Assembly (NCBI GenBank): GCA_026415505.1
Contig: JAOAGY010000032.1
Coordinates: 62,001-126,000, forward strand
Length of the DNA stretch: 64,000 nt
Direction: 5' to 3'
DNA from: Chlorobiota bacterium
GTDB taxonomy: Bacteria; Bacteroidota; Ignavibacteria; Kapaibacteriales; NICIL-2
Below are positions 38,926 to 43,768 of this stretch, in pieces. Below the pieces are notes generated by a model. The model was not told where the DNA came from. It saw nothing but the letters and a program-made list of their open reading frames with translations, and made no database searches. Each line of letters opens with the position of its first letter. Positions within the stretch are counted from its first letter, which is position 1. The position numbers were made by a program, and so were the translations under genes.

Positions 38926-39222
38926 ATGACGACGGTGACTGTCACAATCAGTGGACGTCAATTTCGGTTACGCTGCGACGACGAACAACGGACAGTCCGT
39001 GCTGCTGCTGAAGTCGAGACTATTCTCGAACTACTCCGGCGAGATTCTGCCGATCAATCTACGCCGACACTGGCAATGTTGGCGGCACTCAATCTTGCCG
39101 AGCGTAACGACGCTCTTATCGAGCAACGCGATGCTATCGTTGGATATGTCTCCGAGCAGCTTCGTGCAATGGGGGCGTATCTGGAAGAGGCGATGCAACG
39201 GGCTGTCGAAGCGACGACGTAA
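38926..39222 (+). CDS. zapA: Cell division protein ZapA
   Basis: 98 aa. ZapA binds FtsZ and bundles protofilaments at mid-cell. The N-terminal domain has the pattern VTVTISGRQFRLRC (4-17) and DEQRTVRAAAEVE, followed by a helical dimerisation region with MLAALNLAE (about 50-58). This matches ZapA of Bacteroidota. The preceding gap is 159 nt, including a strong palindrome, so it may have its own promoter. It is followed by a 333-nt region holding a candidate structured RNA, then rny. The family call rests on the short N-terminal pattern and the locus. Confidence 0.85.
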   Translation: MTTVTVTISGRQFRLRCDDEQRTVRAAAEVETILELLRRDSADQSTPTLAMLAALNLAERNDALIEQRDAIVGYVSEQLRAMGAYLEEAMQRAVEATT

Positions 39223-39288
39223 GCCTTCGTCGCAGTGTGATCGAACGACTGGACGGTCATCGGTTCTTTGGAAACTCCGATCGAGTTG

Positions 39289-39525
39289 CGAGCCGTACTG
39301 CATCATCGTTGCACACGCGTAGCGCAGAACCGACTATGATCAAAGCGGGGAAATAGGCTCCGTGTACCAATGGCAGACTGCACCGCGATCCAACGCGGCC
39401 AGTTCAGTGGCGGCAGGAGCCAGCGGTAGGCGGGCTACTTCCCAAATGTGTGCTTGAAGGGTTCTTGCGATACCCGATACGCCTTATTAGGCGGACGATG
39501 CATGAAGTGCGGCTCGTGTTTTTTT
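39289..39525 (+). ncRNA. ssrS: Candidate 6S-like regulatory RNA
   Basis: The 333-nt gap 39223-39555 has no convincing ORF, but its right part folds into a nested rod. The closing stem pairs 39289-39298 with 39507-39516 (10 bp) and then 39299-39303 with 39498-39502. Further in, 39323-39331 pairs with 39460-39469 (one bulge), 39356-39361 with 39416-39421, and an apical hairpin is closed by 39383-39387 with 39394-39398. A small hairpin (CGCCT-TATT-AGGCG) sits in the 3' side of the bubble, and a T-run (39519-39525) ends it. A closed rod with a central bubble, next to zapA, is the 6S RNA pattern; 6S RNA binds RNA polymerase. Identity is inferred. 39223-39288 shows nothing clear apart from a weak promoter-like TTCTTTG. 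Confidence 0.6.
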
Positions 39526-39555
39526 GATTTTGTTTTACCAACATCGAATGCTGCG

Positions 39556-41118
39556 ATGGAATACACGACGATTCTCGTACTGAGTGTTATCGGGTTGATA
39601 CTCGGTTTCGGCATTGCGTACTTTGCTGGTACACGGGCTGCTGCTGCGCGCATTGCCGATGCGCACGAAAAAGCAAAAGCCATTCTCGACGAAGCGGAAA
39701 AAGAAGCTCGGACGCTCAAAAAAGAGCGAATGATCGAGATCAAAGAAGAGCTGCACAAAAAGCGGCAGGAATTGGAAAAGGAGTATAGCGCACGGCGGAA
39801 CAAACTGCAGAACCAGGAAAAACAACTCGCCAGCCGCGAAGAAGCTATCGAAAGCAAGCTCGAATTGATTGCACGAAAGGAAAAGCAGATTCAACAAGCC
39901 GATCAAGAGCTTCAACGCAAGCAACGCATCATCGAGCAAAAGCTCAAAGAAGCTGAAGCACTCGTCGCAGAGCAAAACCTGCGGCTGGAGCGAATCAGCG
40001 GCATGTCGCAAGACGACGCCAAACGCTATCTCATCGAGAACATGGTCAGCGAAGCACGTGCGGAGGCTGCGCAGTTGATCAAGCAGATTCGCGACGAAGC
40101 CCGCCAACAAGCGCAACGCGAAGCACAAAAGCTCGTCATCGAAGCCATACAGCGTACTGCGTCCGATCACTGCGTCGAAACGACCGTGTCCGTGGTCAAT
40201 CTCGCTAGCGAAGAACTCAAAGGTCGCATCATCGGCAAGGAAGGACGCAACATCCGTGCGTTCGAATCAGCAACGGGTGTTGACCTCATCATCGACGACA
40301 CACCGGAGGCGGTCGCAATCTCGGCATTCGATCCGTACCGACGCGAAATCGCTCGTATCGCACTCGAACGCCTGCTCGCCGATGGTCGCATCCATCCTGC
40401 GCGAATCGAAGAAATCGTCGAAAAAGTCCGGAAAGAAGTCGATGAAGAGATCGTTCGCGTCGGGGAACAAGCCGTCATGGAGCTGGGAATTCACAACATG
40501 CATCCCGAACTGATACGCCACGTCGGCAAAATGAAGTACCGGTCGAGTTACGGACAAAATCTGCTGGCGCATTCGATCGAGGTTGCCTTTCTGGCGGGCA
40601 TCATGGCTGCGGAGTTGGGTCTCGATGCACATCAAGCAAAACGCGCAGGATTGCTCCACGACATCGGCAAAGTTCTCGATCGCAATACCGAGGGTCCTCA
40701 CGCCTTGCTGGGGATGGAACTCGCCAAGCGGTATCGTGAACACCATGTGGTCTGCAACGCGATCGGCGCCCACCACGAGGATATCGAGATGGAATCGCCG
40801 ATCGCCGTACTCGTCCAAGCCGCCGATGCGATCAGTGGTGCGCGTCCGGGTGCTCGACGTGAATCGCTCGAGCAGTACATCAAGCGATTGGAAAAGCTCG
40901 AAGAGATCGCGATGAGCTTCGAAGGTGTGCAGAAAACATTTGCGATTCAAGCGGGGCGCGAGGTGCGTGTTATCGTCGAGCCCGAGAAAGTCGACGACCT
41001 CACCGCCGATCGGCTCGCCAACGACATTGCACGGCGTATCGAGCAAGAAATGGAGTACCCTGGTCAGATTAAAGTAACCGTCATTCGAGAACGACGGAGT
41101 TTTGCTATCGCCAAGTGA
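39556..41118 (+). CDS. rny: Ribonuclease Y
   Basis: 520 aa, the typical length. Membrane-anchored endoribonuclease that starts mRNA decay. Order: N-terminal transmembrane helix (about 4-25), long charged coiled coil (about 30-195), KH domain (about 210-275, with [14 protein letters not shown]), HD phosphohydrolase domain with His368-Asp369 in LLHDIGK, and a C-terminal region. The start is the ATG at 39556. An in-frame extension to 39448 would translate part of the RNA locus and lacks family similarity. It ends 14 nt from the convergent fliA. Confidence 0.98.
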
Positions 41119-41132
41119 GACGCCGACGAGGT

Positions 41133-41981
41133 CTATTGTTGTTGTCGTTCAGGATCGGCTTCGGACTCGAACTCTTCGATTTTTTTGCGGAGCTCGCTGC
41201 AAATCTGTGTGTGAATTTGGCAAATTCGGCTTTCTGTCAGTCCTAAGATGTCGCCGATTTCTTTGAACGTCAGCTCCTCGTAGTAGTACAGCGTTATGAC
41301 GAGCCGTTTGCGCTCAGGGAGCTTTGCAATGTAATCGCGAACGAAAGCGAGACGCTCGTCGCGCACGAGTTGAGTAAAGGGTGTTCCCGCATCGTCGTCG
41401 GGAATTTCCTCGATAGCATTGCGCTCGTTTCCTTCGTCGTCATAACTGACCTCGGAATTCATCATCGAAAATGACGCATTCGCGGCTGCCATTGCGTTCA
41501 GGTATGCTTGGTATTCTTCGGGGCTAATACCGAGTCGCGCCTGAATCTCGTCGGCGGACGCTTCGCGTCCGAGCTCACTTCGAAGGCGGTCGCTGATTTC
41601 CGTCAGCTCGTGTACCTTCTGCCGGGCTGAGCGCGAGAGCCAATCGAGCTTGCGCATTTCGTCGAGAATGATGCCACGAACGCGCGGAACAGCAAAGGTT
41701 TCGAATTTGATGCCGCGCTCTGGCTCGAAGCGCTCAATCGCATCGTGAAGCCCAAGTAATCCGACGTGTAAGAAGTCTTCTTCCTCCAACAATGCATTCG
41801 ATGGGATGTTCATGTTGTACAGCGTGTATCGAACGATCCACGAGTAATGGAGGAGGAGCTGTCTCTTGATTTCCTCTTTTCGGGCTTTGGGTGTCCGGCG
41901 AGCGCGAAGCTCCTTCCAAAGAGCCGCGAACGCAATTTCACCGGGAGTGCTCTGTGCGGCAGATTGTAGGGTATTTGCCAT
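41133..41981 (-). CDS. fliA: RNA polymerase sigma factor FliA/WhiG type (sigma-28)
   Basis: 282 aa. This sigma factor drives late flagellar and chemotaxis genes. Region 2 (about 60-125) has DFLHVGLLGLHDAIERFEPERGIKFETFA. Region 3 (about 135-190) includes SADEIQARLG. Region 4 (about 215-270) has LTFKEIGDILGLTESRICQIHT, the typical sigma-28 helix-turn-helix. A Gln-rich acidic tail ends it. The gene is last in an operon behind flhF and a small membrane protein, 10 nt after the latter, with AGGATG before the ATG. Its presence implies a flagellum. No anti-sigma factor FlgM is nearby. Confidence 0.93.
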   Translation of the reverse strand: MANTLQSAAQSTPGEIAFAALWKELRARRTPKARKEEIKRQLLLHYSWIVRYTLYNMNIPSNALLEEEDFLHVGLLGLHDAIERFEPERGIKFETFAVPRVRGIILDEMRKLDWLSRSARQKVHELTEISDRLRSELGREASADEIQARLGISPEEYQAYLNAMAAANASFSMMNSEVSYDDEGNERNAIEEIPDDDAGTPFTQLVRDERLAFVRDYIAKLPERKRLVITLYYYEELTFKEIGDILGLTESRICQIHTQICSELRKKIEEFESEADPERQQQ

Positions 41982-41991
41982 AGGTTACATC

Positions 41992-42372
41992 CTATCCCGT
42001 TGGTGAATTTTCCATCGTTGTCGTTTGTGCTTGTGCATTCATCGAGGCGCGGTCGGCATTCGAAGCAGAGAGCATTGCGGCAAGTTGCTCTTCTTCTGCC
42101 AATCGAGCTTGTTGACGGAGCTCTTCTTGTTTGATGCGATGGAGGACAGAGACTACCACGACCATCAGTACGCTTCCAGCGACAGCGAACCCGATGAAGA
42201 CGACAATAGCACGCAGGAGTAGAGTGTAAAGATCATCGTTGCCAGCGGCGAGCTGCAATAAGATACTCAATGAACTCGCCAGCAGGCTGGTGTTCAATAC
42301 GAAGCCGAGGGGATAACGGACCCACTGCTCGTGTTGGCGATCCTGTGAACGAGACGTTTTGCCCATGCGCAT
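41992..42372 (-). CDS. Small two-helix membrane protein in the flhF-fliA operon
   Basis: 126 aa from the ATG at 42372 (ATG 42366 also possible; a TTG at 42375 is less likely). Two membrane segments (about 18-42 and 49-76) with a short loop are followed by a basic-acidic amphipathic helix (IKQEELRQQARLAEEEQL) and a Thr/Asn/Gln-rich tail. I know no family for it. It occupies the slot between flhF and fliA where flhG (a MinD-like ATPase) lies in many motile bacteria. Gaps of 4 and 10 nt make cotranscription nearly certain, so a motility or flagellar-placement role is a fair guess. Confidence 0.65.
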   Translation of the reverse strand: MRMGKTSRSQDRQHEQWVRYPLGFVLNTSLLASSLSILLQLAAGNDDLYTLLLRAIVVFIGFAVAGSVLMVVVVSVLHRIKQEELRQQARLAEEEQLAAMLSASNADRASMNAQAQTTTMENSPTG

Positions 42373-42376
42373 CAAT

Positions 42377-43570
42377 TCACATCGTTACGGATGTCAGTAA
42401 ACGGTTCGAGCTGAAGAGAAATCTCATCAAGCGATCAGTACTCGGTTCGACGAGGTCGTCGGGCAGACGTGTGCCGGTTGTCAGCAATGAAAGTGGGATG
42501 TTGTGTTCCCAGAGCAGTGGCAGCAAGTGTCCGCATTGGGGTGCCTCGTCGAGCTTGGTAAGCGCAACGTGATACGTCGTGCTACGTCCCAACCGTGTCA
42601 GCATCGAACGCGCGATCTCGACATCGCAGGTCGCCGGTAGCGTGAACACGATAGCTCCACGAGCTTGCTCGACAGCATCGGTAAAGCTCGAAATACTCGC
42701 AGCGGTGCGTGCGCTCGGAGGCGGAAGATCGAGCAGCGTGATGCTGTCGGGTTCCGCTTGGAATTGTGACGGTTGGCGAATGCTGCTGACTTCGATACCG
42801 ACCAATGTTCCGAATGAGCGTAATTGCTCTATTGCTGCGATGCGTTCAGTGTCAGCCGATAGCAATCGAATCGTTAGTTCCGGTTGGGAGCGCTGCAACA
42901 AAAGTGCTGCCTTCATGAGCGTTGTAGTTTTTCCGCTTCCGCTCGGTCCGGTAAACGCAATTATTGGCGGGACGCCATCTGCAAGCAAGCGCCGAACCTG
43001 TATCAGCCCCGATAGAATGCTGTGGAGGCGTTCGGTGCATTCCTCTACTGTTGCCAATGGCTCGGCATCGGCGATGCGCGCGATCAAATAGCCAGCATAT
43101 TGCTCGGCGAATCCTGCTTCTCGGAGCATTTCATACGTCCGCCGATACGGATCGGGCAGAATAGAGCTATAGCGGTATGCGACCGCATGGGTAATCTCGG
43201 TCAATTTCACCGACAATCGGTGAATTTCCTCTTGCAGCTCACTGATAGCATCGTTGCTATGCTCTCCGGCATGCTCGATGTAGTACTGCAATGGAATCGG
43301 CTCACCCGATTCGCGACGCGATGTGCGCGTGGTGGTGCGTTTCGGAAACGAGGGTGCGCCCGCTGCTTCTACCAGGTGGTCGGTATGGCGAGCAGCTCTA
43401 CTCGACGCCATGCCGACGACTTCGGCAAAAGGCATACCGTCTGGTGCAATGCCCGAGCGAGTCGTTAGTAGCAATGCATCCTCGCCCAGCTCATGACGCA
43501 TGGCATCGAGCGCTTGGCGTAACGTCGGAGCAACGAACGTTTTCGTTCTGGCAGTCACAGGTGCCTCCAT
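42377..43570 (-). CDS. flhF: FlhF-like SRP-type GTPase, flagellar placement
   Basis: 397 aa from the ATG at 43570; an upstream in-frame region lacks family features. FlhF recruits early flagellar parts to the pole and sets number. The N-terminal B region (about 8-55, TFVAPTLRQALDAMRHELGEDALLL) is typical. The NG domain has P-loop GPSGSGKT (208-215), ADTERIAAIEQLRSFG (about 239-254) and the G4 motif TKLD (338-341). The G3 motif that should read DTAGR reads DLPPP (281-285), which may weaken GTP hydrolysis. flhG is not adjacent. The promoter should lie in the 198-nt divergent gap with rsmI. Confidence 0.88.
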   Translation of the reverse strand: MEAPVTARTKTFVAPTLRQALDAMRHELGEDALLLTTRSGIAPDGMPFAEVVGMASSRAARHTDHLVEAAGAPSFPKRTTTRTSRRESGEPIPLQYYIEHAGEHSNDAISELQEEIHRLSVKLTEITHAVAYRYSSILPDPYRRTYEMLREAGFAEQYAGYLIARIADAEPLATVEECTERLHSILSGLIQVRRLLADGVPPIIAFTGPSGSGKTTTLMKAALLLQRSQPELTIRLLSADTERIAAIEQLRSFGTLVGIEVSSIRQPSQFQAEPDSITLLDLPPPSARTAASISSFTDAVEQARGAIVFTLPATCDVEIARSMLTRLGRSTTYHVALTKLDEAPQCGHLLPLLWEHNIPLSLLTTGTRLPDDLVEPSTDRLMRFLFSSNRLLTSVTM

Positions 43571-43642
43571 GCAGGTATCGTTCCACTGTACTCCCCGTAA
43601 AAACTGTGCCAGCGGTCTTCCCTGATAACAAACTCGTATATT

Positions 43643-43657
43643 GCATTCGACGAATGC
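43643..43657. repeat. 15-bp perfect palindrome between flhF and rsmI
   Basis: GCATTCG-A-CGAATGC lies next to a TATATTG sequence in the divergent gap, a plausible operator. No known regulator consensus is matched. Confidence 0.4.
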
Positions 43658-43768
43658 GTGTTGAACCTTGCGACTGATTGCCACCTGCAGTGCACAGGTG
43701 GGAGAGAATCGACATGCATCGGGAGAGGACTCCCTGTTCGTCAGAAAATCACCTATTACACAGAACAC

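Follow-up and report, generated by a model that had tools for sequence, protein, structure and literature searches.

6S RNA is a widespread global regulator of transcription, an open-promoter mimic that parks RNA polymerase. Does the Kapaibacteria species studied here, whose closest named genomes are Candidatus Kapaibacterium MAGs, encode one, and where? The question is raised by positions 39223-39555 of the 64,000 nt stretch that was analysed (the window), a gap between two genes in which a first-pass annotation, working by eye, had seen a nested rod with a T-rich end and had proposed the organism's 6S RNA, of about 230 nt.

A conserved locus between zapA and rny

The placement of the gap between zapA and rny was borne out by Pfam, which confirmed both gene identities (Table 1). 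Upstream of zapA, the window carries pheT and a coiled-coil gene, and this order (pheT, coiled-coil gene, zapA, RNA, rny) is kept phylum-wide. Among relatives of the order, rny was found in 77 of 80; zapA precedes it, and the gap, mostly 300-430 nt long, holds a conserved RNA. At the level of class and phylum, 28 of 29 loci have rny next to the RNA, mostly with pheT as well (tblastn counts, in which some genomes appear twice). The sole exception among the 29 is genome G047 (locus L265), where the 6S RNA is on another contig than rny, still beside a zapA. Genomes G015, G049 and G057 gave neither an rny match nor a 6S match; either these neighbouring genes were lost together, or the assemblies share a gap here. 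In E. coli the context is zapA-ssrS-fau, and the window RNA likewise occupies the position after zapA that is typical of 6S genes, with rny rather than fau downstream. Beyond rny, on the opposite strand (41133-43768), lie genes for a FliA-type sigma factor and an SRP54-type (FlhF-like) GTPase, which suggest a motility cluster.

Table 1. Features of the 6S locus and its neighbours (window positions)
Feature	Position	Strand	Basis or remark
zapA, upstream neighbour	38926..39222	+	Pfam ZapA PF05164, 8e-11; also the neighbour in relatives and in E. coli (zapA-ssrS)
boxA-like element GGTTCTTTGGAAAC, in presumed precursor upstream of RNA	39262..39275	+	resembles rRNA-leader boxA of the order
6S RNA (very probable), ~238 nt	39288..39525	+	R1 57.5 bits, fold z -5.29, conserved in relatives; presumed ends, from closing stem and T-tract
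closing stem, 5′ strand	39288..39310	+	pair probability ~1; covaries in relatives
GCACAC, 5′ strand of mutually exclusive helix	39311..39316	+	pairs with 39448-39453 (GTGTGC), P 0.31
predicted pRNA template, product 5′-AGUCGGUUCUGCGCUA	39320..39335	+	from in-register alignment to E. coli 6S
bubble-bounding helix, 5′ strand CGCAGAACC	39323..39331	+	helix 1 of A3: 94.5% of cells paired, 7/8 pairs with double changes
central bubble, 5′ strand	39332..39347	+	unpaired in consensus
apical arm	39348..39443	+	pair probabilities mostly >0.9; helices 2-6 of A3
central bubble, 3′ strand, carrying GTGTGC 39448-39453	39444..39459	+	pair probabilities; A3
bubble-bounding helix, 3′ strand GGTTCTTGCG	39460..39469	+	pair probabilities; A3 covariation
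small hairpin, 3′ side of closing region	39480..39493	+	P ~0.98
closing stem, 3′ strand	39494..39517	+	pair probabilities; covariation in relatives
T-tract GTTTTTTT after closing stem, presumed transcript end	39518..39525	+	sequence; T-rich ends in many relatives
rny (RNase Y), downstream neighbour	39556..41118	+	Pfam RNase_Y_N PF12072, 8e-53; adjoins RNA in 28/29 loci

The gap folds as a closed rod with a central bubble

Positions 39287-39521 fold at -108.0 kcal/mol, compared to -83.3 +/- 4.7 for dinucleotide shuffles (z = -5.29, none of 200 shuffles being as good), and folding of the whole gap gave z = -4.45. The nested rod with its T-rich end was recovered where it had been described, and so were a 9-bp helix, which corresponds to the bubble-bounding helix (P ~0.69), and the small hairpin on the 3′ side. 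The closing helix had been drawn as 15 bp, pairing 39289-39303 with 39498-39516 around a bulge at 39503-39506. The helix itself is present; its register had to be revised slightly, and its length to ~22 bp interrupted by single-base bulges. Its outer part pairs 39288-39298 with 39507-39517 at a probability of ~1.0, and further in, 39301-39303 pair with 39502-39504 and 39304-39310 with 39494-39500. The central bubble is asymmetric. The apical arm starts with a GGGAA/TTCCC helix, continues as a long covarying stem (39357-39368 with 39425-39435, then 39371-39381 with 39413-39422) and ends in two terminal hairpins, 39384-39397 and 39398-39411.

A scan for simple terminators returned nothing, the scan being blind to a stem with a 180-nt loop, and a scan for sigma-70 consensus promoters found none, which is no surprise in a phylum whose promoters differ. 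Among the Melioribacter-type loci (L124-L155), the T-tract is missing from many, in which the RNA extends almost to the rny ribosome-binding site and the transcript end may therefore form differently.

Standard Rfam models miss the window copy

Comparison of the whole window with Rfam at the gathering threshold gave no match to a 6S family, and a search of the gap itself at E <= 10 returned nothing. Over the whole genome, the only RF00013 match lay elsewhere, at an E-value of 8.7, and none was found for RF01685 (6S-Flavo), a family described as the 6S RNA of Bacteroidetes (PMC2864571), the phylum to which the window belongs. RF01685 was found in 36 of 296 genomes sampled across the phylum, none of them from the window's order or class.

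The relatives were more informative. In five of 80 genomes of the order, RF00013 matched below threshold (31-41 bits, E 1e-6 to 4e-4), each time in the zapA-rny gap and with an alignment passing through the hallmark 6S positions; none of the 80 exceeded the RF00013 cut-off. Under strict filters, none of the 296 phylum genomes exceeded it either, and 52 had matches below it. Since this cut-off is the detection threshold of a model rather than a biological feature, and since 0 of 296 genomes pass it, we take the miss in the window to be a limit of sensitivity. With laxer filters, one genome of the same class does pass (47.1 bits, for a cut-off of 46.4 bits), at a locus, L176, whose gene order is identical to that of the window: pheT, coiled-coil gene, zapA, 6S, rny. 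The search with the Rfam 6S models that the first-pass annotation had put forward as a check was thus negative at the window locus itself; for a relative it was positive, the orthologous locus scoring above the cut-off.

A covariance model built from relatives

A covariance model, R1, was derived from an alignment (A2) of 23 relatives of the order, the window's genus being left out; compensatory changes were seen at 15 of the 30 pairs in A2. R1 found a single match in the window, 39324-39467 (57.5 bits, E 2e-10), which was also its single match in the whole genome, making this locus the single best candidate there. Given that RF00013 offered only its E 8.7 match and RF01685 none, the genome holds no better 6S candidate elsewhere. 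In the Bacteroidota sample, 165 of 296 genomes had a single R1 match, among them 49 of the 52 with RF00013 matches below cut-off, and matches of the two models overlapped wherever both coordinates were compared. At the Rfam-certified locus L176, R1 scored 97.5 bits, so that the window RNA is connected to a certified 6S RNA by way of intermediates. Applied to the 2.5-kb zapA-ssrS stretch of E. coli, the best R1 match was ssrS, in the right register, with a score that is weak when taken alone (10.8 bits, E 0.12).

To the window we added loci anchored on rny or on R1 matches, which made 93 sources. R1 matched 89 of them (at rny-anchored loci, upstream of that gene), and the resulting 89 sequences form alignment A3. 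In A3, 91.1% of cells were paired, compared to 77.3% after shuffling, and 25 of the 30 pairs showed double changes. The covariation score was 0.416, against 0.165 for shuffled alignments and at most 0.083 for slid structures; A3 was fitted to the model and therefore leans towards the structure, yet the slid and shuffled controls lie far below. The outer closing stem, which lies outside R1 and was counted separately, had 327 of 336 cells paired, compared to 295 +/- 2.6 in shuffles. Closing stem, bubble and apical stem are therefore all present with compensatory changes, and the covariation among relatives that had been suggested as a further check is strong in A2, in A3 and in the closing stem.

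Identity of the RNA

The match to R1, the covariation, the single copy, the conserved zapA/rny locus and the RF00013 matches at orthologous loci together lead us to conclude, with little room for doubt, that the RNA in the zapA-rny gap is the 6S RNA (SsrS) gene of this Kapaibacteria species, and the length first proposed is now put at ~238 nt (39288-39525). With RF00013 and E. coli ssrS the RNA shares the closing stem, a GA(A/G)CC-G(G)GUUC helix beside the central bubble, the apical arm and the position after zapA; the GGGA...CCCAC bubble edges of RF00013 are found in most of its relatives. It differs from both in its score, below the reportable level for the window copy, in its length (~238 nt versus 183 nt), in a longer closing stem and in an apical arm ending in two small hairpins. 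A further difference from E. coli ssrS, besides rny in place of fau, is the boxA-like element upstream. The 6S RNA of B. thetaiotaomicron, likened here by description only, is from another class of Bacteroidota; it was validated by dRNA-seq and has two classes of pRNA (PMC7366714).

In the 3′ bubble strand, the usually conserved CCCAC(T/C)G reads CCCAAATG in the window, and AAAGAACC reads GCAGAACC. Over 39441-39453 the window genome has CCCAAATGTGTG where its genus mates have CCCACTGTGTG, a change of the normally conserved edge of this strand; the same edge is changed in family member G006.

Other readings of the gap were weighed. That Rfam finds nothing in the window is what would be seen if a G+C-rich gap between genes had folded this way by chance; the likelihood of this is practically nil, in view of the z of -5.29 and the phylum-wide conservation, and the A3 covariation refutes it. 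A rod-and-bubble shape is by itself not decisive, as it is common to 6S RNA and to Ms1 (PMC9130861). Ms1 RNA of Actinobacteria has, like 6S RNA, a link to RNA polymerase, and it binds the core enzyme. An Ms1-like RNA here, 6S-shaped and binding core polymerase without sigma and without pRNA synthesis, is highly improbable: at orthologous loci the matches to RF00013 concern sequence as well as structure, one of them above the cut-off, and pRNAs have been reported for the Bacteroides 6S RNA (PMC7366714). No match at the sequence level was found between the window RNA and Ms1.

Location directly upstream of rny, as seen in most loci, would also fit a cis-acting leader of that gene (an attenuator or an RNase Y autoregulation site) rather than a trans-acting RNA. 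This has a very small chance of being correct, though a marginally better one than an Ms1-like RNA, given that in G047 the RNA is beside a zapA and on another contig than rny, that the RNA matches 6S models, and that the E. coli 6S RNA follows zapA without rny. We therefore retain the 6S reading; the gene is a previously unannotated member of the known 6S family, and the locus is ordinary in kind.

Predicted action and an alternative helix

6S RNA binds the housekeeping RNA polymerase holoenzyme as a mimic of the open promoter, and synthesis of a short pRNA releases it (PMC9130861); in B. thetaiotaomicron, both the 6S RNA and its pRNAs were detected experimentally (PMC7366714). By analogy, the window RNA would sequester RNA polymerase and be released by pRNA synthesis. 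The folded RNA would mimic the melted DNA of an open promoter and bind polymerase carrying the housekeeping sigma factor, holding it inactive, probably during slow growth. Once nucleotides are plentiful, polymerase may use the GAACC arm together with the 5′ bubble strand as template for a short pRNA, reading from ~39335 to 39320. This product would repeat the GGUUCU of the 3′ arm, and so could displace that arm, upon which the RNA would refold and the enzyme be freed.

A candidate for the refolded state is the helix 39311-39316/39448-39453. It cannot coexist with the GAACC/GGTTC helix and has a probability of 0.31, versus 0.69 for the latter. Over 23 genera, its strands pair better when matched than when mismatched (p 0.0004; p 0.001 for the variable part), while the same test on two control strand pairs gave p 0.07 and 0.65. 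This hints that the two strands coevolve, a signal that shared ancestry and base composition may inflate.

A boxA-like element upstream of the RNA

The presumed precursor carries, upstream of the RNA and on the transcribed strand, an element resembling the boxA of rRNA leaders (for example GCGTTCTTTGAAAACAGG in the order and CGGCTCTTTGAAAACTGG in a genus mate). The 2.29-Mb genome contains GYTCTTTGRAAA at just two places, one of them this element. Of 49 loci of the order, 14 had the core of the element, YTCTTTGR, no further than 80 nt upstream of the RNA, compared to a mean of 0.34 and a maximum of 3 in shuffles, 6 of 474 control windows, and 0 of 49 on the reverse strand; overall, 28 of 89 loci had it upstream of the RNA. 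Always on the transcribed strand, it is found in the window's genus and in some members of several further families, and in only part of the order. Such a patchy distribution makes it a feature of lineages, not a hallmark of the family. A reading of GTTCTTTGAAA as a promoter -7 box was set aside, because rRNA leaders of the order carry the element downstream of a separate promoter box, TAATTTTG.

The element suggests that the 6S precursor may be transcribed by antiterminated polymerase, as for rRNA. The literature searched contained no published link between the making of 6S RNA and the rRNA antitermination machinery. A fuller proposal, that boxA couples the 6S precursor to rRNA Nus antitermination and that the RNA is also released via the coevolving alternative helix (pre-bubble 5′ strand with 3′ bubble strand), strikes us as speculative and somewhat unlikely in its entirety.

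Significance

6S RNA thus goes unannotated by the standard Rfam model in the window's order and across almost the whole phylum sample, and the aligned family (R1 and A3) provides a ready model for annotating it there. The same model and alignment link the copies of Kapaibacteria, those of Ignavibacteria type and those of other Bacteroidota to one ancestral locus beside zapA. What may surprise specialists is the gap in Rfam coverage of this phylum, together with the boxA-like element. If that element is functional, the making of an RNA that parks polymerase would be tied to the very machinery that drives rRNA synthesis.
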